Shown piece by piece: positions 33,361 through 45,189 of a DNA stretch of 64,000 nt. How positions within the stretch are numbered: position 1 is the stretch's first letter; each line of letters opens with the position of its first letter. Both the position numbers and the translations under genes were made by a program. The stretch is from Zobellia uliginosa (GTDB lineage Bacteria; Bacteroidota; Bacteroidia; Flavobacteriales; Flavobacteriaceae): positions 304,275-368,274 of the forward strand of contig NZ_FTOB01000002.1 in the NCBI RefSeq assembly GCF_900156625.1. Reading direction: 5' to 3'. Under the pieces are notes generated by a model. It was given only the letters and a program-made list of their open reading frames with translations. It did not search any database and was not told the DNA's origin.

Positions 33361-35205
33361 ATGGGAATATTAAGTAAAGTAATGTACGCATGGGCCTTAG
33401 GTTCTAGCCTTTTGGGTACGATGGCAATGGCACAAACAGATAAAAAGCCAAATGTGATTATAATTTTGACCGATGATCAAGGCTATGGGGATATTGCGGC
33501 CCATGGTAACAAGGTCATTCAAACGCCGACAATGGACAAGCTGCACGATGAAGGCGTCCGTTTCACGAATTTTCATAGTGGAACGACCTGCGCGCCGAGC
33601 CGGTCGGGCTTATTAACGGGAGCGGACGGTAACCGTGCGGGAGTATGGCATACCATTGGTGGCGCCAGTTTGCTTCGTGAGAAGTTTGTATTGATGCCCC
33701 AGGTCTTTGAGGATAACGGATATGCTACCGGAATGTACGGAAAATGGCATTTGGGCGATGCCTATCCGTACCGTCCCCAAGATAGAGGGTTTCAAGAAAC
33801 CGTAGTACACGGTGGTGGAGGTGTAGGCCAAACACCCGATTATTGGCAGAACAATTATTTTGATGATACCTACTGGCGAAACGGGGTTCCAGAGAAGTTT
33901 GAAGGCTATTGCACCGATATCTTTTTCTCGGAGGCAATGGATTTTATGGAAAGAAAAAAAGACCATCCTTTTTTCCTCTATATCTCATTGAACGCCCCTC
34001 ATGGTCCATTGAACGTACCCCAAAAGTATTACGATATGTACAAGGGCGAAAAGACCATCAACGATGACCAAAAGGCCTATTATGGTATGATCACCAACAT
34101 AGATGACAATATTGCCCTTCTAGATAAAAAACTGGAGGTTTTAGGTTTGAAAGACAATACCATTTTGATTTTCATGACCGATAACGGTACCCAGACGGGA
34201 CATAAAGTGGTTAAAGGAAAAGTTCAAGGTTATAACGCAGGTATGCGTGGGCATAAGGGTTCACAATATGAAGGCGGACATCGTGTCCCTTTCTTAATGC
34301 GTTGGAAAGACGGTAAGCTAACAGGGGGGCGCTCGATCGATCAACTGGCTATGAATTTTGATGTGCTTCCTACCTTGATCGACCTATGTGATTTGGGGAA
34401 AGTTCCAAATCTAGGTTATGATGGAAAAAGCTTGGCGCCCTTGTTGAACAAGGAAGTGGAGAAGCTTCCGCACCGCTATTGCGTAGTAGACAACAATCGT
34501 TTACAGCAACCTGTAAAATGGAGGATGAGTGCTGTTATGGATGACGATTGGAGACTTATAGATGGCAAAGAACTATATCATATTAGGAAAGATCCCGGAC
34601 AAGAAAAAGACATCGCTTCAAAACATCCTGAAAAGGTAAGGGAGATGCGTGAAGCCTATGAAAAGTGGTGGGACTATACGTCTCGGGATTTTTCGCACTA
34701 TGAGGCTTATAAAATTGGAGTGCCTACCATTCAAGAAACCGCGATTACCGTTCATGACCTGCATAGTTCGGATCCCATAGCATGGAACCAATCGTATATC
34801 CGAAATCCTGAATCTGGTAAAAAGCCGGCTTTTGCCGATGGGTTTTATATGATAGACGTACAACGCGACGGATATTATGAAATTGAGTTGCGAAGATGGC
34901 CCAAGGAATCGAACTTGGCATTTAATGCTACACCACCACAGCTCGGACAGGCCGAAAAATGGTACAACGTTCGGCCAGAAGGGGTGTCGTATCCGCTAAA
35001 AAGTGCAAGTCTAGATATTGACGCACTGCATCTGGATAGTCCCGTTGACATGAAGTCAACTAACGTAACCTTTAAGACGTATTTGGTGAAAGGCCGTAAG
35101 CATTTAAAAGCGAATTTTACTAGGGAAGATGGTGTTCGTTTTGGAGCGTTTTATGTCTATTTGAGAAAGGTAGGGGCCTTATCTGACCAAAAGGATACCA
35201 AATAG
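33361..35205 (+). CDS. S1-family arylsulfatase-like sulfatase with C-terminal extension
   Basis: A 614-residue secreted sulfatase. After a short signal (LLGTMAMAQT) the fold opens with PNVIIILTDDQGYGDIAAHG. The maturation motif Cys77-Ala-Pro-Ser-Arg (TTCAPSRSGLLTG) is canonical. The arylsulfatase-A-like YGKWHLGD and FMTDNGTQTG motifs follow. Beyond about residue 470 there is an extra beta-rich domain (YYEIELRRWPKESNLAFNA, then VTFKTYLVKGRKHLKANF) found in some polysaccharide sulfatases. It is the last gene of the + strand block and ends before the terminator at 35241. Confidence 0.92.
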   Translation: MGILSKVMYAWALGSSLLGTMAMAQTDKKPNVIIILTDDQGYGDIAAHGNKVIQTPTMDKLHDEGVRFTNFHSGTTCAPSRSGLLTGADGNRAGVWHTIGGASLLREKFVLMPQVFEDNGYATGMYGKWHLGDAYPYRPQDRGFQETVVHGGGGVGQTPDYWQNNYFDDTYWRNGVPEKFEGYCTDIFFSEAMDFMERKKDHPFFLYISLNAPHGPLNVPQKYYDMYKGEKTINDDQKAYYGMITNIDDNIALLDKKLEVLGLKDNTILIFMTDNGTQTGHKVVKGKVQGYNAGMRGHKGSQYEGGHRVPFLMRWKDGKLTGGRSIDQLAMNFDVLPTLIDLCDLGKVPNLGYDGKSLAPLLNKEVEKLPHRYCVVDNNRLQQPVKWRMSAVMDDDWRLIDGKELYHIRKDPGQEKDIASKHPEKVREMREAYEKWWDYTSRDFSHYEAYKIGVPTIQETAITVHDLHSSDPIAWNQSYIRNPESGKKPAFADGFYMIDVQRDGYYEIELRRWPKESNLAFNATPPQLGQAEKWYNVRPEGVSYPLKSASLDIDALHLDSPVDMKSTNVTFKTYLVKGRKHLKANFTREDGVRFGAFYVYLRKVGALSDQKDTK

Positions 35206-35240
35206 TGAAGAGATTGTATTAGGGTATTGTAATATATGAA

Positions 35241-35280
35241 AACAGGGAGCCGATTTATAAAAGGAGGCTCCCTGTTTTTA
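35241..35280 (+). terminator. Terminator of the + strand sulfatase block
   Basis: AACAGGGAGCC pairs with GGCTCCCTGTT across a 14-nt loop and ends in TTTTATTTT. It lies 35 bp after the last sulfatase stop. Confidence 0.88.
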
Positions 35281-35311
35281 TTTTGTGCTTTTTGGGTTCT
35301 TCTATTTTAGG

Positions 35312-35345
35312 CAAAAAAAGCCAGGGAACCCTAAGGCTCCCTGGC
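35312..35345 (-). terminator. Terminator of the - strand SusC/D block
   Basis: On the - strand GCCAGGGA and TCCCTGGC form the stem, followed by a T7 tract. It lies downstream of both the third susD and the susD remnant, so the remnant sits inside the resident transcription unit. Confidence 0.8.
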
Positions 35346-35402
35346 AACAAACTAACTCAACAAACAACTCAATATAAATTTTTTATAAGGTGTTCAATAC
35401 TT

Positions 35403-35544
35403 TTAGTAACCGGCGTTTTGAAGCATTGAAGGAGCTTTTTCAACCTCGGACTGTGGTATGGGCAGGTAATATTGCCGGATGAACCATGGTCGTTGTATTA
35501 TATTCTTCATTGGTCAAATTACCGTCTGCAGCCTTAAGTTTTAA
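35403..35544 (-). pseudogene. SusD C-terminal remnant with frameshift
   Basis: Directly downstream of the third susD stop codon, the same strand encodes another SusD tail. The first part reads ADGNLTNEEYNT in one frame. A one-base shift then gives RPWFIRQYYLPIPQSE, continuing VEKAPSMLQNAGY and a TAA at 35403-35405. The intact upstream SusD ends RPFDKKQYYLPIPQSE, then INRTEALIQNEGY, so the two tails align across their whole length. Over the ten codons for QYYLPIPQSE the DNA differs at seven positions, all synonymous, and five of the seven are G or C in the remnant and A or T in the intact gene. This is a relic of a replaced or deleted susD, not a simple recent duplication. Confidence 0.88.
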
Positions 35545-37296
35545 TTAATAACCTTCGTTTTGAATAAGCGCCTCGGTTCTATTTATTTCTGATTGTGGTA
35601 TTGGCAAGTAGTACTGTTTTTTATCAAATGGTCTTGTTTCAATTGTAAATTCTTCAAAAGAAACATTTTCATCAAGATCTTTTGTCCAGCGCAGACCTTT
35701 TACGTCAAAACCAAGATTATCTTCATTTAACCAACGTCTTTCGTCAAAGAAGTTATGACCTTCAAAGGCAAGCTCTACCCGTCGCTCTCTTTTTATTGCT
35801 TCTAATAGTTCTGGACCACTAGCTGTAATAGCTGGTTGCAAGGCCCTTTCAGAAACCCTACTTACATATCTTCTTGCCGTCTCTTCATCACCAGCTCTAA
35901 AGGAAGCCTCTGCATAATTTAGATAAATTTCTGCAAGTCGATAGATGATATAGGGTCTACCCGGGCTAGCTTGTTTTACATCTGTACCCAATGCCTCATT
36001 TTGAAATTTACGTATTCCATATCCAGTTGTAGATCCGTGTCTAAAGTTTCCTAAGGTCTGCTGGTCTTGTGAAAAAGAATCTAAACCATCTGGGACAACG
36101 GTGTTATCTAAAGAAATAGCGTAATCAATAGGTCTTCCTCTAAATATAGCTCCTTGGTAATTGATATTGGCGTAAAAACGCATTTCGCGATTCTCGTAAG
36201 GGTTTGCTGCATCATAGGAAGGACTATCCGTAGTATTACCGTCATCCATATTATAAATTAAGGTGTGGTTGTGCAATGGTGTAGAAAGATTCCATCCATC
36301 AAAACCTCTAGGCGATTGCGCATTGTCAGGTTGGGTCGTTACATCGGTGCCGAAGCCAAAAACAGTTCCCCCAAACGGTCTTGCGAATAAGATATCTTGA
36401 TTTGCTGATAAAAATAGATCTTGATAAGCCTTAGCATCGGGAGTACTTATCAAATCTCGATCCCCTACCAAATCAATGACTGCTTTAGCAGCATCCGCAG
36501 CATCTTGCCATTTGTTGGCCTTGTCATAGGTGTACAATTCCAAATTAGATGTTTGCGGAGCCATAGACGGGTCGTGCAAATCACTCGCTGCATATAACAA
36601 AGTTCTAGATTTCAATGCCAACGCAGCCAATCTTGTAGCTCTGCCAAATTCTCCACTTTCTCTAGTTAGTGGTAAAAGTGGGGCGATTTCATCAATTTCA
36701 CTAACAATAAAATCTACGACTTCTTGATAACTATTACGTGGAATATTAAAGTCGTCATCTAGCGTTGTAGCCGAGGTTAATAATGGTACGCCCCCAAAGA
36801 ACTTTAATAGTTTTGAATACTGATTAGCCCGTAAAAAACGCATCTCAGCCTTTAAGGCTTCTATTTCATCAGGATGATTTATTTGGGCCTCGCTACCTTC
36901 AACCAATTCTAAGAATACATTGGCTTGTCTTACATAGGTGTAAAGGTCTTGCCATTTTTGACCTAACTGTCCTACATTTTGAGAAGACCAACCCCTAAGA
37001 ACTCTAAAGATGTCCAAGGCTTGTGTTGCTGCGTTGAAATTCATTCTAGCTTCAATGGATGCTATTTCCACATTCATGTAACGTGCCCAAAACTGGGAGC
37101 CAGCCCCAAATGACTCTGTACTGTTATAAGTAGTAAGTAATAACAGTTCAACTTGTTCTGGTGTACTCAATACCAAATCACTGGCAAATGAGTCCCTTAC
37201 GTCTATATCCAAGCTTTCTTCACAACTGCTAAAGGTCATAAAGAATGCTATCAGCATGATAATGCTTATTTTTTTTATTGCTTTAATATTTCTCAT
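35545..37296 (-). CDS. SusD-like surface glycan-binding lipoprotein (pair 3)
   Basis: About 583 residues from the ATG at 37296, chosen because it follows the susC stop by 10 bp and starts a good lipoprotein signal (IIMLIAFFMTFSSC, then EESLDIDV). An ATG at 37326 would overlap susC. SusD/RagB features are AEMRFLRANQYSKLLKFFGG, YIIYRLAEIYLNYAEASFR, YVSRVSERALQ and KRERRVELAFEGHNFFDERR, ending QYYLPIPQSE. Codon choice is more A/T-rich than in the neighbouring sulfatase genes by eye (TTA, AGA and AAT are frequent). It is transcribed against the preceding block and has a relic of a second SusD tail directly behind it. Partner of the following SusC; probable foreign or exchanged allele. Confidence 0.94.
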   Translation of the reverse strand: MRNIKAIKKISIIMLIAFFMTFSSCEESLDIDVRDSFASDLVLSTPEQVELLLLTTYNSTESFGAGSQFWARYMNVEIASIEARMNFNAATQALDIFRVLRGWSSQNVGQLGQKWQDLYTYVRQANVFLELVEGSEAQINHPDEIEALKAEMRFLRANQYSKLLKFFGGVPLLTSATTLDDDFNIPRNSYQEVVDFIVSEIDEIAPLLPLTRESGEFGRATRLAALALKSRTLLYAASDLHDPSMAPQTSNLELYTYDKANKWQDAADAAKAVIDLVGDRDLISTPDAKAYQDLFLSANQDILFARPFGGTVFGFGTDVTTQPDNAQSPRGFDGWNLSTPLHNHTLIYNMDDGNTTDSPSYDAANPYENREMRFYANINYQGAIFRGRPIDYAISLDNTVVPDGLDSFSQDQQTLGNFRHGSTTGYGIRKFQNEALGTDVKQASPGRPYIIYRLAEIYLNYAEASFRAGDEETARRYVSRVSERALQPAITASGPELLEAIKRERRVELAFEGHNFFDERRWLNEDNLGFDVKGLRWTKDLDENVSFEEFTIETRPFDKKQYYLPIPQSEINRTEALIQNEGY

Positions 37297-37306
37297 AATT
37301 CTTTTT

Positions 37307-40300
37307 TTAGAAACTAAAATTAACACCCAAAGTATATGTTTTTAGAGGAGTATATTGTGCTCCCCTAAAATTGTTATACCCTGTAGCTTCAGGATCGAGG
37401 CCCAAGTCCCAGATATCTGAGAAGAAAGTGGCTAGGTTAAACCCTCTGGCAAACAGGCGAACATCAGCAAATTTGATAACATCGCTTTTTAAGGTGTACG
37501 AAAGTTCCACTTCTTTTAGGCGCACAAAAGAGGCGTCAAAATAGTAAAGGTCAGCAAAACCATCAGTACCGTCTATTTGCCCTCCACTAATGGCATCTCC
37601 TTGTGCAAACGCTCTTGGATAGATTGAGTTAGTGTTGTTTGGCGTCCATCTTTCATTGAATACAAATTCTGGTTTTGCGCCTGATTGATCAAAGAATACC
37701 AATGTTTCTGCTTCAGCTTGCCCTTGAAACAAGAAATTAAAACCAAAAGATTTGTAATTGAAGCCCCCATATATACCGTATTGTATTTGTGGAATGTTTG
37801 AAGTTGATGTTCTGATAAAATCATTTCCATCAACTACACCATCATCATTTACATCTATGTAAATCGGTTCTCCCGGCACAGTGCCCTCTCTTTTAATGGA
37901 AGTAGCATCAACCTGGGCTTGGTCTTTAAAGATTCCATTTGTCGGGAAGACCCTATTATAGGAGTCTATGGGTTTACCTGCTTGCTTTTGGGAATCTAAG
38001 ATATTTTCTCCCTCAGGCAAAGAAACTACTTCGTTACGAGCATTTGTAAAATTCACTCCTAAATTATAAGAGAAGTTATCGGTTACTTCGTCATTCCAGG
38101 CTAATTCAAATTCGTAACCCCAGCTTCTGGTCTTACCTATGTTTTCAGCCGGAATTTGACTGTTCTGTAACCCTATAAACCCAGGAATAGCTCCTGATCT
38201 ATTCACTAAAATATCTGATCTATCTTGTTCGTAGTAGTTGAAATCACCTGATAATTTATTGTCGAACAATGTAAAGTTCAAACCAATATTCCATAGCTGT
38301 GCAGTCTCCCAAGTAACATCGGGGTTAGCTAGCCTAGCAAGATTGTAGGTATTGACAAAACTTTCACCACCTTCTCCCAATACGTAATAATTTGGGAACC
38401 TTGTGCCTAATGGATTAATTGCGTTACCTGTATTCGTTCCAAGATCGAACAAGGAAAGGAATTGGTTCGCACCAATACGGTCGTTACCCATTTTTGACAA
38501 AGAAGCCCTAAGTTTTAAACCATCGATCCAAGCTACATTCTCTAAAAAACTTTCTTTATCCATCGCCCATGAGACTGCAGCACTTGGAAATGTCCCATAA
38601 CGATTGCCTTCACCAAATCTACTGGACCCATCATATCGCATTGTGAAGTCAATAAAGTATTTTTTCTTAAAATCATATGATAGGGACCCAAAGAAATCTT
38701 GTCTTTTGAACTCAGAACTTGTTCCGCCTGAAGCCTGTCTATCATCATTATTACCTTGAAATAATTCTCCTCTTCTAGCATCAGGAAATCCACCAACTTT
38801 AGTAGCAAAGAAATTGTTTGAAGCATTATTCAATCTTTCCATTCCTATGAAGGTGCTTATAGAGTGCACGCCGAAGGTGTTATCGTAATGTAAACGTGCA
38901 TTATAGATTTGTTCATCAAATTTGCTAAATCTCTCTGTCAAGATACGTTCAGTTCCTTGTTGGTTGGATCCAATTCTTGGCTCAAAAGTACCATCATCCA
39001 ATTGCGCATAAAAAGTCCATGGCGAATACCAAGATTTTGAATTGGTTTCAATTTTCCTGAATCCTGTAAATCCTTTTATACTTAAACCCTTTAAAACTTT
39101 ATCCAAGTTCCAATCTGCCGTGAAACGACCTGTTGTCGTGTTTGTAAAATTATCTTCAAAACCAGAGGCGTTGCTTGAAGTTAAAATAGGGTTACCTTCA
39201 TCACCTCCCCGTGCAGGAAGACCATTAGGGTATCTTGCAATTTCATTTGGCGGTAGAGCAAAAATTAATTTATAAATATTATTTGCGTTAACACCTGGCG
39301 CCGTCCTTTTACCAAAACGTGTAGCCAAATCTACTCCTAGTTTAAAGCTGTCCGATAAATTGACATCTATATTAGAACGTAGTTGGTATTGCTTAAAACC
39401 TAAAGCACCTGATTTATATAAACCTTTTTGGTCTATAAAATCACCACTTACAAAATACTTTGCTTTTTCGGCACCTCCAGAAACAGAAAGAGAGGTTCTA
39501 GATTCGGGAGAAGTCTTTGCCAATACCTCATCGGCCCAATCCGTATTTGGAAAACCTGCAATATCCTCAGGTGTAAATACAAGATCTGCATCAGCACCAT
39601 TAACTCTTGCATTTATTTCATTCTCGTAGGTTGCAAACTGGTTTACATCCATCAATTCTGGCCGTTTGGTAAATGATGAAACGTTGTAAGCATGAGAGAA
39701 ATTGATTTTCGGCTTTCCTGATTTACCTCTTTTCGTAGTTACCAAAATTACCCCGTTGGCTGCTCTAGAACCATAAATTGCAGCGGCACCATCTTTAAGT
39801 ACCGTAAGTGATTCAATATCTTGCGGTGCTAATTGAGAGAATGAACCTGAGGGAACACCATCTATAAGAATCAACGGAGTGTTATTACCTAAGGTAGATT
39901 TTCCCCTGATCAAGATCGTAGTAGCATCATCGTCTGTACTGCCACCGCCGCCATTGCCTGCACCTGGTACACCACCACGGTCACTAATAATTAGACCAGA
40001 AGCCCTACCTGCCAGGGATTTGGCAACATCTTTACTTGAGGATTGTTCAATTGCTTTGTTATCAATAGTACTTACCGATCCTGTTACTTCTCCTTTTTTC
40101 TTGGTTGAATACCCCAATACAACCACTTCTTCAAGTTTGGCCGCATCTTCTTCTAGTGTAACGTTAATTTCAGTTTGGCTACCAACTTTAATTTCTTTTG
40201 AAGAATATCCTATATATGAGTATACTAGGGTAGTTTCCGCATCTACTTCTATGTTATAATTACCATCAAAATCTGTAGAAGTACCTTTGGTACTTCCTTT

Positions 40301-40534
40301 AACAAGAATGGTTACACCGGCCAATGGTCCCATGGCATCCGATACGGTACCGGATACCGTCCGTTGGACTGGGGGGGCGGTGAGGTCGTTTTCTAAAGGC
40401 GATTCCGTAGTCTTCGAAAATGCGTGTGATTGCATTGGAATCGTTACTGCTAAGATTATCGCGAATTTGAGAACGAGTAATCTTTTGATGGAGTTGCTTG
40501 GGCAGCCCGCATCAGTAAACCATTTGATTTTCAT
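37307..40534 (-). CDS. SusC-like TonB-dependent glycan transporter (pair 3)
   Basis: A 1075-residue outer-membrane transporter. The signal segment is VLKFAIILAVTIPMQSHAFS, followed by an acidic linker and the carboxypeptidase-D-like domain (VSGTVSDAMGPLAGVTILVK). The plug starts at LEEVVVLGYSTKKKGEVTGS and has a Gly-rich insertion (GAGNGGGGSTDDD). It continues with LILIDGVPSGSF and AAIYGSRAANGVILVTTKRG; the barrel ends in YTLGVNFSF. By eye, roughly the first 75 codons use more G/C-ending codons than the rest, suggesting a chimeric join near 40300. The gene lacks the TTGTCAA motif seen upstream of pairs 1 and 2. Family certain; substrate may differ from the other pairs. Confidence 0.94.
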   Translation of the reverse strand: MKIKWFTDAGCPSNSIKRLLVLKFAIILAVTIPMQSHAFSKTTESPLENDLTAPPVQRTVSGTVSDAMGPLAGVTILVKGSTKGTSTDFDGNYNIEVDAETTLVYSYIGYSSKEIKVGSQTEINVTLEEDAAKLEEVVVLGYSTKKKGEVTGSVSTIDNKAIEQSSSKDVAKSLAGRASGLIISDRGGVPGAGNGGGGSTDDDATTILIRGKSTLGNNTPLILIDGVPSGSFSQLAPQDIESLTVLKDGAAAIYGSRAANGVILVTTKRGKSGKPKINFSHAYNVSSFTKRPELMDVNQFATYENEINARVNGADADLVFTPEDIAGFPNTDWADEVLAKTSPESRTSLSVSGGAEKAKYFVSGDFIDQKGLYKSGALGFKQYQLRSNIDVNLSDSFKLGVDLATRFGKRTAPGVNANNIYKLIFALPPNEIARYPNGLPARGGDEGNPILTSSNASGFEDNFTNTTTGRFTADWNLDKVLKGLSIKGFTGFRKIETNSKSWYSPWTFYAQLDDGTFEPRIGSNQQGTERILTERFSKFDEQIYNARLHYDNTFGVHSISTFIGMERLNNASNNFFATKVGGFPDARRGELFQGNNDDRQASGGTSSEFKRQDFFGSLSYDFKKKYFIDFTMRYDGSSRFGEGNRYGTFPSAAVSWAMDKESFLENVAWIDGLKLRASLSKMGNDRIGANQFLSLFDLGTNTGNAINPLGTRFPNYYVLGEGGESFVNTYNLARLANPDVTWETAQLWNIGLNFTLFDNKLSGDFNYYEQDRSDILVNRSGAIPGFIGLQNSQIPAENIGKTRSWGYEFELAWNDEVTDNFSYNLGVNFTNARNEVVSLPEGENILDSQKQAGKPIDSYNRVFPTNGIFKDQAQVDATSIKREGTVPGEPIYIDVNDDGVVDGNDFIRTSTSNIPQIQYGIYGGFNYKSFGFNFLFQGQAEAETLVFFDQSGAKPEFVFNERWTPNNTNSIYPRAFAQGDAISGGQIDGTDGFADLYYFDASFVRLKEVELSYTLKSDVIKFADVRLFARGFNLATFFSDIWDLGLDPEATGYNNFRGAQYTPLKTYTLGVNFSF

Positions 40535-41069
40535 AAATTTGAATTAGTTAGAGTTAAACATGCCCCAGGATCAATGGGGTAATACTTTACATCATGCTTG
40601 GCATGAAATTCTAAAGGGGAATGTTGGCGCATTCTCCTTTTTTTGGTCGGTTACATCTTGTGTTTTTTTTTCTTAGGGTTCAACATTTTAATGTGTTAGG
40701 TCGAAATATGAATTTGATAATATGCAATTGAATTTTACAAAAGAAGCATAAAAAAAGAGGGAAGCATTTGCGAAATTTAACTAGCGGTAACACTATTTTA
40801 CCATTTTTTGGGTTAGATGATGGTAATAGTGTTAAAAATTCAGTTTATGAAGGGGAATGGAAGCCTTAATCGTTTGGTAGATTTCTATTTTTTGAAGAAA
40901 AGTCTTTCTTCGCGCTTATCGGTCGAAGGGTAGGGGAGGTGTTCCTTTAAACAAAGAAAGCTGACCAGAAAGGCTTGATGACCTTCTAGTTAGCTTTGTT
41001 GTGATCTTTATAAAACGATAGGGCCTGATATAGGCGAAAATGGATAAGCAGCTTAATATAGGTTTAAAG
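40535..41069. other. Region between third susC and response regulator
   Basis: 535 bp upstream of the - strand susC and downstream of the kinase/regulator pair. It contains a terminator-like hairpin at 40950-41000. It also has a short imperfect hairpin around 40619-40640 in what would be the susC leader (GGAGAATG and CATTCCCC on the - strand). No supported gene and no TTGTCAA motif. Confidence 0.5.
40950..41000 (-). terminator. Terminator-like hairpin after the kinase/regulator pair
   Basis: On the - strand AACAAAGCT pairs with an AGCTTTCTTTGTT arm and CTAGAAGG pairs with CCTTTCTGG, with small mismatches. The sequence after it is T-rich but not a clean tract. Confidence 0.5.
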
Positions 41070-41477
41070 CTAGCTGGCTTTCAGTTGGGTAAATACGAGT
41101 TCGAGCTGTTCGGTTTTTATGGGTTTTACAAAATAGTCGCAAATTTCATTTGCCCTTTTCGCCCTGTCGATGTCAATGGGGTCCAAGGAAGAAGAAATCA
41201 TATAGATGCTTATCTTCTTTTTGAGTTGGTGCCTGATCTTATCGAACTCCTTTAAAAACTGAAATCCATCCATAACCGGCATATCGATGTCAAGAAAAAT
41301 AACATCGGGTAATTCGGTGTCACTATCAAGGTGGTCGGTTATATAATTGAGGGCCTCTTCTCCATCCTCAAAGTCTAGGGTTTTTGCGTCTAAACGCATA
41401 TTTTCCATTTTTTTCACAACGGTATATCGATAGATGTAATCATCATCGATAATACAGATTTTCGGGGTTTTACTCAT
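41070..41477 (-). CDS. Single-domain response regulator
   Basis: A 135-residue CheY-like receiver with no output domain. The acidic pocket is in ICIIDDDYIYRY, the phosphoacceptor is in VIFLDIDMPVMDGFQFL, and the conserved Lys is in DYFVKPIK. It starts 9 bp after the multi-PAS kinase stop, so the pair is co-transcribed and the kinase is its likely phosphodonor. Stand-alone receivers of this kind in Bacteroidota usually act in phosphorelays or by protein contact. The output is unknown. Confidence 0.92.
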   Translation of the reverse strand: MSKTPKICIIDDDYIYRYTVVKKMENMRLDAKTLDFEDGEEALNYITDHLDSDTELPDVIFLDIDMPVMDGFQFLKEFDKIRHQLKKKISIYMISSSLDPIDIDRAKRANEICDYFVKPIKTEQLELVFTQLKAS

Positions 41478-41486
41478 GTGTTATAC

Positions 41487-44153
41487 TCAATTAAAATTTA
41501 TTGTGAAAGTAGTTCCGACATCTACCTGACTGGTAGCGGTAATAGTCCCCCCCATAGCTTCTACCTGTGATTTGGTCAAGAATAGTCCTACGCCTTTGGC
41601 TTCGGGATGTCTATGGAATACTTTGTTAAGACCGAAAAGTTTGTTACCGTGCTTTTCGAGGTCAATGCCCAGGCCATTGTCCTTGAATTGCAGCATTATT
41701 TTACCATTTACTGTCATTGATTTTATCTCTAATTCAAGAGTGCGTTCTTCACTTCTGTATTTTATGGCATTGCTTATTAAATTCAAGAATATGCTTTTTA
41801 AATATATGGTATGGTAACGTATAACTTGACATTCCGAAAAATCAGCGGTAATTCGGGCTCCCGATTTTAATATTTCACCTGCTAAAATTTCCTCTGTTCG
41901 GTGAAGCACCTGTTTAAACTTAATATCGGCAATATCGTCTTCATTATGTTCACTTTTAATTTTTAACGTTTCAACTAGAGTATTTAGTGTTGTGGTAAGG
42001 TGATTTATTACCATTTCGAATTTGTCGAATAAGCTTTCACGTAAGATTTTGCTATCTGTAGTTTTGTAAATGTCTAGTAATGAGTTTAGATTGCTTACCG
42101 GGGCACGAAGGTTATGTGAGGTGATATGGGTGAAGTCGGCCAGTTGTTGGTTTTTGTCGGTAAGTGTTTTGGCCAGTATTTCAAGGTTTTCCTTTGCTTT
42201 TATAATTTTTCGTTGTGCCGCCTTTTGCTTGGTGATATCACGAACGGCCAGTGAAACCAAGGTGCCTTCTTCGGTTTGTAAAGGGGCCATGTTTATTTGA
42301 ACCGGTATTTTTTGACCTGTTTTTCGAATGCCGAAAAGCGGTTCGGTTATGCCTAGTTGCTTCACTTTTGAACCGTTGAAGAATGAACTTATATTTTTCT
42401 TGCTGAGAGGTAAGATCTCTTGAGGTATGATTTTGGAAACGGGCTGGTCCAACAATTCTTCTGAGGTAAACTGAAATAGGTGTTCGGTTTGCTTGTTGGT
42501 GAGTTGGATATAACCGGAGCTGTTAATGATGACCATGGCATCAGGGGCTGATTCTAAAAGCCCCTTAAATTTCTTTTCGGCCATTTTGAGTTCGGTAACG
42601 TCTTGGGCCGTACCGATCAATTCTACCACATTTCCTTCCGTATTTAGAACTACCTCGCCAATATTATTTATAATTTTTATATTGCCCTTGGCCGTAATGA
42701 TACGATGTGTGTAGTTTTTAAACTCTTTATTTACGACACTTTCTTCATTATGGGTCACTACCGATTCACGGTCTTCAGGGTGGATGTAGCTCAGGAAATC
42801 TTCGAAGGTAAGCATGGTACTGCTGTTTTCGATTTCAAGTATTCTCAATAGGTTTTTCGAATGAAAGGTCTCGCCGGTATATGGCTTATAACGCCAGTTA
42901 CTTATTTTGGTAAGTTGTTCGGCATAGTTCAAACGCTCGTTTTTAATGACGAGTCTGCGTTCTATTTTCTTTAATCTTGAAATGTCGGTAGCTACTACGG
43001 TAAAACCGATATTTATTCCTTCGTCGTTTCTAAGGTTGGATACCGTGGCCTGAACAGGTACACTTGTACCATCTTTTCGGATATAGTTCCATTCCCTTGT
43101 ATCACTGAGTTCTTCGTAGGTGATATCGGAATAGTGGTTGAAATTTGCGGGTGATTTTCCGATCAGGGTAGCTACATCATACTTGAATTTTTTTACTTCT
43201 TCTAAAGGCAGGAAATCGGCCGGTGTTTTTTTGCCGATCATTTCTTCGGCCGAATAGCCTAAAAGCCTTTCTGCCCCTTTGTTAAAATGGTCGATAAAGC
43301 CCGATTCGCCCGTAGAGAAAATTACGTTGTGGTTCGAATTGAAAATAGATCTTAACTGGGCATGGGCCTTGTTTAGTTCTAATTTTGAAAATGTAACATC
43401 ACTGATATCTTGAACGAGACCGACCACACTTTTAAACTGGCCATCTATGATTTCGGGTTTCCCAATGACACGGACCCATCGGCGATTCCCCTTGGCGGTA
43501 ATAAGTTCAAAATTAAGGTCAAAGGAAATCTTCTTCTCAATGGCGTCTTGAATATGGGCGCTGAGTCTGGGGCGACTGTACTTTTCTTCAAAGAAATTTA
43601 TGGCCTCCTCAAGACTAGGGGTGTATTCGTCTTGAATCTCATGTATTTCACGGGTTATTTTACTCCAATATACCTTATTGTCGGTTAAACTGATTTCCCA
43701 AGTGCCCAATCGGGCCACTTCCTTGGTTTGTGCAAAAATATCTTCGGTCCGTTCTTTTTTGAGTTCATTTTCCTTTTGTGGGGTAATGTCTATGGTATTG
43801 ATAAAGAGGCCCCCGACCTCTCCTTCAGAAATGAACCAAGGGAAAATCTCCCAATGGAGCCATTTTACCTTCCCGCTTTTATTCATAAAGCTGGCTTCAT
43901 CGGTTGTATTGACCCCCTCGGTAAGACATTTTTGGTGGACTTCTTTTGAGCTTTTACTTATTTTAGGAAATAAATCATAGTAGCTAGATCCCACTATTTC
44001 TACGCCTTGCAAATTATATTCTTTTATCCAACGTTGTGATGCGGCAATACAATGCATATTCTTATCGAGCATTACAATAGTAGTAGGCGCCTGCTCGATA
44101 AATATTTTATGGTATGGTATTTTTGATTCCGCTTTTTCGGTTGATTTCTCCAA
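41487..44153 (-). CDS. Multi-PAS sensor histidine kinase
   Basis: An 888-residue kinase without a signal peptide or clear membrane helix, so probably cytoplasmic. Five PAS modules run in tandem at about 18-130, 150-250, 265-395, 405-515 and 525-650. They include PAC-type ends such as KWLHWEIFPWFISEGEVGGL, REWNYIRKDGTSVPVQATV and GQKIPVQINMAPLQ. A coiled linker leads to the H-box ADFTHITSHNLRAPVSNLNS. The ATPase domain has FLNLISNAIKYRSEE and a KGVGLFLTKSQVEAMGG G-box. Several PAS cores resemble ligand- or redox-sensing types but no flavin or heme signature stands out. It heads a two-gene unit with the receiver at 41070. Good family confidence, unknown signal. Confidence 0.92.
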   Translation of the reverse strand: MEKSTEKAESKIPYHKIFIEQAPTTIVMLDKNMHCIAASQRWIKEYNLQGVEIVGSSYYDLFPKISKSSKEVHQKCLTEGVNTTDEASFMNKSGKVKWLHWEIFPWFISEGEVGGLFINTIDITPQKENELKKERTEDIFAQTKEVARLGTWEISLTDNKVYWSKITREIHEIQDEYTPSLEEAINFFEEKYSRPRLSAHIQDAIEKKISFDLNFELITAKGNRRWVRVIGKPEIIDGQFKSVVGLVQDISDVTFSKLELNKAHAQLRSIFNSNHNVIFSTGESGFIDHFNKGAERLLGYSAEEMIGKKTPADFLPLEEVKKFKYDVATLIGKSPANFNHYSDITYEELSDTREWNYIRKDGTSVPVQATVSNLRNDEGINIGFTVVATDISRLKKIERRLVIKNERLNYAEQLTKISNWRYKPYTGETFHSKNLLRILEIENSSTMLTFEDFLSYIHPEDRESVVTHNEESVVNKEFKNYTHRIITAKGNIKIINNIGEVVLNTEGNVVELIGTAQDVTELKMAEKKFKGLLESAPDAMVIINSSGYIQLTNKQTEHLFQFTSEELLDQPVSKIIPQEILPLSKKNISSFFNGSKVKQLGITEPLFGIRKTGQKIPVQINMAPLQTEEGTLVSLAVRDITKQKAAQRKIIKAKENLEILAKTLTDKNQQLADFTHITSHNLRAPVSNLNSLLDIYKTTDSKILRESLFDKFEMVINHLTTTLNTLVETLKIKSEHNEDDIADIKFKQVLHRTEEILAGEILKSGARITADFSECQVIRYHTIYLKSIFLNLISNAIKYRSEERTLELEIKSMTVNGKIMLQFKDNGLGIDLEKHGNKLFGLNKVFHRHPEAKGVGLFLTKSQVEAMGGTITATSQVDVGTTFTINFN

Positions 44154-44325: not shown

Positions 44326-45189
44326 CTATTTCATTTGGTAACGTTCTTTGTATGCTGTAGGGGTGTGGTTGGTAGCGGCCTTAAACTGTCGGTTAAAGTT
44401 AGACAAGGTTCTAAACCCACTTTGGTAACAGGCTTGTGAAGCGGTCATTTTTTTATCGATAAGTAATTTACAGGCATGGCCAATCCGTATTTCGTTTACG
44501 AATTCAGAGAAGGTTTTATTGGCGTGGGTCTTAAAATACCTGCTGAAAGACGTTGGGGTCATATTGGTGAGCTCGGCCATCTCGGTTATACCAATTTTTC
44601 GCGTAAAGTGTTTCATGACATGGGCATAGACCCGGTTCATCCGTTCGGTATCGCCTTCCCTTAAGGTATTGGTGTAACCGGAACTTGCCAAGACTTGCAA
44701 ATCTTCGGTCTTGGCAAGAAGGTTTAAAATGTGAAGGAGGCCGAGAACAGAATCAAATCCTTCCAAATCAGGGAGCTTCATTATTTTCTGTTGAATGATC
44801 GGTGCCGTTTGCCCTATAACATCAAAGCCCCGTAGGCTCTTTTTTAAAAGCTGTCGCAGTTCAATGTACTCTTCCTTGTTCAGAAGCGATTCGCTGATGA
44901 AATCGTGGTCAAAGTAAACCACTATGCCTTCTGCCTTAGCTTCTTGATCGGATTCTACAGGGTCGCTCTTCCATAGATGGGGTAGGTTTGGCCCGGTAAA
45001 GGTAATATCGCCCTGCTGAAATTGTTTTACATGATCGCCTACAAAACGCGTGCCTTTTCCTTTCAATACCATGAATAATTGATATTCAGGATGAAAGTGC
45101 CAGTTCGGGTCAAAAACAGGTTGCTTCAGGCGTTGAACGACGAAGGCATGGGTTTTGGGTATGGGCGATTTTTTTAGGGCAGATTTCAT
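44326..45189 (-). CDS. AraC-family regulator with cupin sensor domain
   Basis: A 287-residue regulator. The N-terminal cupin-like arm (DPNWHFHPEYQLFMVLKGKG, GDITFTGPNLPHLW) would bind a sugar or related ligand. The C-terminal double helix-turn-helix is GITEMAELTNMTPTSFSRYF and ACYQSGFRTLSNFNRQFK, ending in the family's TPTAYKERY. No signal peptide; cytoplasmic. It diverges from the ThuA-fusion gene across about 160 bp (45190-45350), the usual layout for a local activator of the catabolic operon at 45.3-50.9 kb. The target is inferred from position. Confidence 0.92.
   Translation of the reverse strand: MKSALKKSPIPKTHAFVVQRLKQPVFDPNWHFHPEYQLFMVLKGKGTRFVGDHVKQFQQGDITFTGPNLPHLWKSDPVESDQEAKAEGIVVYFDHDFISESLLNKEEYIELRQLLKKSLRGFDVIGQTAPIIQQKIMKLPDLEGFDSVLGLLHILNLLAKTEDLQVLASSGYTNTLREGDTERMNRVYAHVMKHFTRKIGITEMAELTNMTPTSFSRYFKTHANKTFSEFVNEIRIGHACKLLIDKKMTASQACYQSGFRTLSNFNRQFKAATNHTPTAYKERYQMK

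Follow-up and report, generated by a model that had tools for sequence, protein, structure and literature searches.

The carrageenan SusCD pair of Zobellia galactanivorans is CgtA/CgtB, encoded by ZGAL_3581/ZGAL_3580 (PMC5698469). The passages of that study dealing with the pair report that CgtB is retarded by kappa-carrageenan and furcellaran, and slightly by iota-carrageenan, and that double deletion of the cgtA/cgtB pair leads to poor growth on both kappa- and iota-carrageenan (PMC5698469). The substrate of the system has in this way been tested with gel shifts and a gene deletion, in a species that is very probably sister to the one analyzed here. Movement of PULs between bacteria is already known. 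For the displacement of T6SS modules in Vibrio, the authors of PMC5361080 suggest that a process similar to homology-facilitated illegitimate recombination may be at work; the latter is described in PMC3240628.

We analyzed a stretch of 64,000 nucleotides from Zobellia uliginosa, referred to as the window, which carries a pair of this kind. The locus is very likely the product of an in-place replacement, that is, a mosaic operon in which part of a resident type-B susC–susD was exchanged for a Maribacter-type segment. The exchanged unit is smaller than in the known movement of PULs, and would be the part of the transporter expected to contact the sugar. Among the open-licence PubMed Central papers listed by a literature search, we recognized no description of such a swap; a search for zgal_3581 gave one paper naming the gene.

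Two alleles at the susCD locus

Nine Zobellia genomes, one per species, were compared (G000 is the genome of the window), and all of them have one susCD pair at the locus. The pair occurs in two types. Type A is carried by four of the nine (G000, G006, G002 and G007), with SusD proteins 92–96% identical to each other; the SusD of the window is 96, 94 and 93% identical to those of G006, G002 and G007, respectively. The other five (G001, G003, G004, G005 and G008) carry type B and are 90–97% identical to each other, and the identity between the two types is 56–58% for SusD and 59–61% for SusC. G002 and its sister Z. barbeyronii are 95.4% identical in the core, yet their importers share 57% (SusD) and 60% (SusC) identity; thus, the carrageenan preference of A and B could be compared directly in these two sisters. 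We found no second copy of the A or B pair in the genome of the window, where the next SusD by E-value, leaving aside the stub described below, is 31% identical (E = 2.5e-43). Among the matches listed for the nine Zobellia genomes there is likewise no second pair, the best further match having an E-value of 6.7e-71, compared with at most 1.4e-210 for the A or B gene.

In the window, the type-A susD (35545..37326, minus strand) is intact and encodes a CgtB-like protein of 593 aa (Pfam SusD_RagB, E = 1.8e-48), which scores 166.2 and 77.7 bits against the SusD_RagB and SusD-like_3 models (cut-offs of 23.1 and 27, respectively). Its ORF overlaps the end of susC, whose product contains a CarbopepD_reg_2 domain (residues 60–139) and a Plug domain (residues 147–262) and qualifies as a SusC-like TonB-dependent transporter.

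The connection with carrageenan comes from gene order. G006 has the run in its published order (two sulfatases, two GH28, GH2, GH29, susC and susD), and its type-A pair lies 45–48 ORFs before the first GH28, where the published numbering gives 51. G006 has 62 SusD matches, only one other of which (4180806) lies in between, 23–24 ORFs away. Judged by this gene order, G006 is very probably Z. galactanivorans, although the ORF count falls short of the published numbering, and by gene order the pair of the window is most likely cgtA/cgtB. A second connection is the GH127 gene, which is present in the flank of 25 of the 53 related loci and absent from that of 28, a count in which some flanks are cut and four loci are Zobellia. 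It flanks all five Maribacter loci nearest to type A (four at 90–91% and M. vaceletii at 72%) and also the type-B locus of Pseudozobellia. None of the eight 20-kb regions of Zobellia contains it; the GH127 genes of Zobellia lie elsewhere, matching the published distal position. Taken together, the gene order in G006 and the GH127 neighbours make it most likely that a single carrageenan importer exists in the two forms A and B. The cassette did not bring along the GH127 enzymes examined. A quick tree was calculated from 30 of the 35 strong GH127 matches; it has a long branch (G018a) and was used only for who groups with whom. In it, the genes of type-A Zobellia group with those of other Zobellia and not with Maribacter. 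In the same tree, G007 stands beside G003 in three paralogues (support 99–100), G002 stands beside G004 in one (support 85) with the other fork open, and G000 and G006 are not resolved as sisters.

The susD remnant and the boundaries of the exchanged segment

The intact SusD of the window ends in FDKKQYYLPIPQSEINRTEALIQNEGY, with its stop at 35545. Translation past this stop gives LKLKAADGNLTNEEYNT in the same frame and RPWFIRQYYLPIPQSEVEKAPSMLQNAGY in the next frame, followed by a stop ending at 35403. Aligned to the intact type-B tails of G001, G003, G004, G005 and G008, this stub is the displaced 3′ end of a type-B susD, comprising approximately 44 codons (~35403..35535, minus strand). The initial annotation had placed a frameshifted SusD tail directly behind an intact susD and in front of the operon terminator, and both the translation and the position are borne out: the terminator, a hairpin with a T run (35313..35345, minus strand; hairpin 35345–35320), lies beyond the stub. 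A resident block of the 3′ flank, GTTGTTTGTTGAGTTAGTTTG (35348..35368, minus strand), stands behind susD in all nine Zobellia genomes. With respect to the B alleles and to G006, the stub of the window has a 5-base gap near 35500, the net effect of which is a one-base shift; the stub of the sister genome G006 has the same start directly after the susD stop and is still a single open frame.

The stub DNA scores 67–85 against the type-B susD tails of the five congeners, with a maximum of 19 in 1000 dinucleotide shuffles per tail. Against the window's own intact susD tail it scores 23, which is above the same shuffle maximum, and the two are 53% identical as proteins over 32 residues (E = 4.4e-4). 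The Pfam SusD model picks up the stub of G006 directly (E = 2.4e-4, profile positions 262–297), and all five type-B SusD C-termini have the form.DG.L.NEEYTVVERPWFERQYYLPIPQSEVEKAPSMVQN.GY, as in the stub. Since the type-B scores are high and the own-tail score is low, the stub is the tail of a different susD and not a copy of its neighbour. The same difference in DNA score ruled out that the stub stems from a recent local duplication of its intact neighbour. The ten shared codons for QYYLPIPQSE, checked by eye, differ at seven positions, all synonymously, in agreement with the initial annotation. The larger share of G/C-ending codons that it ascribed to the remnant holds numerically (GC3 over 30 codons of 0.47, compared with 0.27 for the intact tail) but fails as a diagnostic, the intact B tails ranging from 0.23 to 0.37. 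Codon composition was also rejected as a marker of origin, the GC3 of the cassette being 0.27–0.34 across the nine Zobellia genomes. The further proposal, of an overwritten original susD with the stub at one of the boundaries, is supported by the five of nine genomes that have, at this very place, an intact susD ending like the stub; the refuting outcome set beforehand, a stub with neither an intact counterpart nor SusD similarity, was absent in the relatives. Three points are new relative to that annotation, namely that the plug and barrel of susC were also swapped, that a boundary lies within susC and that type A is spread over three lineages.

The boundary in susC divides the gene into two parts. 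First, the 5′ part (40128..40534, minus strand), approximately 136 codons for the N-terminus and the CarboxypepD_reg domain, is resident Zobellia sequence according to the identity per window of 25 residues: SusC residues 1–125 are 64–96% identical to the five type-B Zobellia and 0–60% identical to four type-A Maribacter loci. Residues 126–150 are similar across all of the compared sequences. Second, from residue 151 onward, Maribacter is closer (72–100%) than type B (28–92%) in every window, so that the CgtA-like plug and barrel (37307..40100, minus strand) are donor-type and Maribacter-like from nt ~434 of susC. The junction interval is placed by maximum chi-square and by the Pfam domain limits of 139 and 147 at nt 408–434 of susC (40101..40127, minus strand), at EEVVVLGYSTKKK. 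The maximum chi-square of the window susC with three donors is 316–471, with a shuffle maximum of 26 (500 shuffles each). The values for G000 and G006 with three donors each are 309–496, with switch points at nt 405–437, and those for G002 and G007 are 350–489, with switch points at nt 351–436; the shuffle maxima across the four type-A genomes do not exceed 28. The switch site is the linker from the CarboxypepD_reg domain to the plug, where the aligned sequences have a conserved motif.

Upstream of susC, approximately 275–324 of the 600 bases in the window match seven other Zobellia at 74–80%, and nearly all of them match G006, whereas the same 600 bases have no match at E 1e-3 in five Maribacter stretches and Pseudozobellia. 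The switch in SusC and these upstream matches show that the upstream region, the N-terminal domain and the 3′ flank are resident and that the plug, the barrel and SusD are donor-type. A response regulator (41070..41477, minus strand; Pfam Response_reg, E = 4.1e-15) and a PAS-domain histidine kinase (41487..44153, minus strand) follow upstream, the latter being resident context common to type-A and type-B Zobellia. As a separate observation, this kinase beside the importer is 75% identical in amino acids between G002 and G004, despite their core DNA being 95.4% identical, and residues 401–500 of the window kinase are only about 28–46% identical to those of seven congeners; its sensor part may have been exchanged too or may be diversifying fast. 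An AraC-type regulator (44326–45189) has an 83–86% counterpart in the 20-kb regions of G005, G008, G001 and G003, and no counterpart was found in the regions examined of G006, G002, G007, G004 and G018.

At the 3′ boundary (35536..35547, minus strand), the TAA stop and the following TTA are as in the donor type, and after a short ambiguous stretch the resident remnant begins. TAATTA is common to three of the four donor-type Maribacter genes, and the junction is shared by the window and G006. Two hairpins, 35236–35281 and 35320–35345, lie within 35205–35345, where the sulfatase gene and the susD operon converge; judged by eye, there is one per direction. Elsewhere in the genome of the window there is a lone SusD C-terminal fragment (L047:1564-1992 / L260:7622-8050; G000:C13 ~875,560-876,050) of 142 codons counted from its first start (175 open); no full-length susD immediately precedes it. 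Its neighbours look by eye like a cytochrome c assembly gene on one side and, on the other, a sigma factor with ORFs of susC and susD size behind it. The fragment may be a further susD that was displaced or is decaying.

The remnant shows which way the exchange went: a B remnant behind a type-A susD argues that A replaced B, and a decayed B tail in G002, described below, adds evidence of its own. The segment that begins with the SusC plug and ends shortly after the SusD stop would have replaced the matching resident type-B stretch, with the upstream region, the signal peptide, the CarboxypepD_reg domain and the 3′ flank being kept. The left crossover would lie at the linker between the two domains, within a conserved motif of SusC. 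At the right end, donor DNA behind its stop would have been joined to the resident susD ~44 codons before its end, which would have been left as an untranslated fossil and have lost 5 bases since. The data show the mosaic itself, its two boundaries, which allele was lost and how unevenly type A is spread over the genus; from them we infer an act of recombination, with homologous pairing on the left and short-homology joining on the right. This course would fit homology-facilitated illegitimate recombination, the conserved susC motif serving as the homologous anchor on the left. The right-hand homology amounts to ~4–5 bases at most (TTAA/TTAAA) at a partly eroded junction, so the joining mechanism is suggested with caution. 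The predicted effect is that, with regulation left as it was, another module binds and translocates the glycan, and we read the event as a probable exchange of a specificity module by recombination. If the pair is cgtA/cgtB, as is most likely, the choice of carrageenan oligosaccharides that are imported may have been retuned.

Spread over the genus and competing histories

Type A is unevenly distributed on the species tree, which was calculated from concatenated gyrB, parE and rpoB (7,617 columns) and in which three of the eleven inner branches are open. The single-gene trees disagree at deep branches (support down to 17, with varying placement of G007), so the concatenated tree and AU tests were used; G002 and G004 are grouped with a support of 100 in each of the three single-gene trees. 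G000 is placed with G006, G002 with type-B G004, and G007 with type-B G003 and G001 (90/99). This distribution needs three changes. A single clade of the four type-A carriers is rejected by the AU test (p-AU = 5e-12), as is a grouping of G002 with G007 (1e-5). The differences at four-fold sites also depart from those of the core genes. For five pairs across the three A lineages, they are 0.15–0.34 in the cassette compared with 0.36–0.50 in the core, whereas B–B pairs (five of ten computed) give 0.36–0.48 and 0.27–0.39, and G000–G006 gives 0.24 and 0.13, respectively. The smaller cassette differences across the A lineages indicate that type A crossed between Zobellia lineages after their split.

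Three distinct 3′ ends are found among the three type-A lineages. In G000 and G006, the stub stands directly behind the susD stop. G002 has a donor-like 3′ flank with a hairpin, 77% identical over 118 nt spanning the stop to that of Maribacter sp. 1_MG-2023, followed by a short decayed B tail and then by the block common to all nine Zobellia. None of 1000 shuffles was as good as this tail against G004 or against G000; the p-values are 0.005–0.011 against G005, G008, G003 and G006, and the match to G001 is not significant (p = 0.2). G007 has no stub behind its type-A susD, and the gene runs straight into a resident-type flank. This flank (L073) matches G005 and G008 almost exactly, unlike the core-gene relatives G003/G001, which points to more recombination at G007 than the simple model says.

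As to the donor, 21 of the 397 genomes of the family have a SusD match at E ≤ 1e-80, and outside Zobellia only G315 (90%) and G363 (72%) exceed 60% SusD identity. The genome collection contains 89 stretches encoding a relative, 80 of which were kept. Among these 80, the relatives at 90–91% outside Zobellia belong to Maribacter huludaoensis, a Maribacter MAG, Maribacter sp. 1_MG-2023 and strain 4-528, the last of which bears the name Maribacter algarum in a passage of PMC12313589. None of the four is close enough to be the direct donor. The four type-A cassettes of Zobellia cluster together to the exclusion of the sampled Maribacter (support 100), from which they are separated by a four-fold distance of 0.43–0.55; thus, either the import happened long ago or its direct source lies outside the sample. 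The donor would be Maribacter or a near relative.

Within the replacement reading, two histories compete. The first, a single import followed by spread through recombination in shared flanks, with the junctions trimmed later, has in our estimate an even chance. It agrees with the single cassette group in Zobellia, for which reason we favour it, and with the sequence that G002 and G007 share from susC nt ~385, upstream of the G000/G006 switch; the three distinct 3′ ends would fit separate imports equally well and leave room for repeated import. The second, a number of separate imports whose unsampled donors were the same or closely related, is a serious contender that falls somewhat short of even odds: 3′ junctions that differ and 5′ switch points that vary somewhat from lineage to lineage speak for it, and the common branch of the four Zobellia cassettes is set against it. 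An ancestral tandem duplication, with A and B side by side, one of them deleted in each lineage and the stub as the leftover of B, is a very improbable account of the locus. It would explain a piece of the B susD directly behind the A susD, as well as the presence of both types in the genus; however, A is nested in B (a B-like susC start, then A, then a B-like susD end), which a single deletion would not give, no second pair is present among the matches listed for the nine Zobellia, and cassettes that differ less between the A lineages than core genes do speak against an ancient paralogue. Lastly, a programmed DNA inversion or shufflon has next to no chance of having made the mosaic, for although SusC/SusD alleles are also exchanged in Bacteroides fragilis according to the relevant text of PMC11852207, none of the nine inverted-repeat pairs in 35200–41600 has arms at both cassette ends (the pair nearest in layout, 35642–35663 / 40192–40213 at 86%, has one arm inside susD and the other 65 bases outside the 5′ junction) and the genome lacks another pair of the lost type.

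The core claim is that the segment was replaced in place and that the stub is the scar at its right end. It is independent of the limits of the sample, the trees and the naming, and of who the donor was and whether A and B differ in function. Beyond it, we tentatively suggest that the SusC linker could be a recurrent exchange point, at which carrageenan-importer modules (plug, barrel and SusD) have been swapped repeatedly between genera, retuning the glycan imported. Under the same suggestion, which we hold with equal reserve, the regulation, the signal peptide and the enzymes would stay resident, and the 3′ susD fossils would be a readable record of the swaps.

Comparison with known systems

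The type-A pair of G006 is, by position, the pair of the CgtA/CgtB study, and the SusD of the window is 96% identical to it; the passages of that study on the pair describe neither two alleles nor a mosaic SusC or a remnant (PMC5698469). The SusC/SusD shufflon of B. fragilis (Tsr0667), as far as its description in PMC11852207 goes, resembles this locus in having alternative SusC/SusD proteins in one gene cluster. However, a recombinase shuffles them there within one genome, whereas the replacement here would have come from another genome. Glycan genes are thought to move between Flavobacteriia, as stated in the corresponding part of PMC6298971; here, only the plug and barrel of the importer and SusD moved, their target was an operon already resident, and the boundary lies inside a gene. 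In the T6SS effector modules of Vibrio cholerae, which displace one another sequentially as outlined in parts of PMC5361080, a constant 5′ part is likewise combined with an exchanged 3′ module, and the old leftover is pushed downstream. The leftovers in that system are orphan immunity genes, whereas the leftover at this locus is a dead susD tail.
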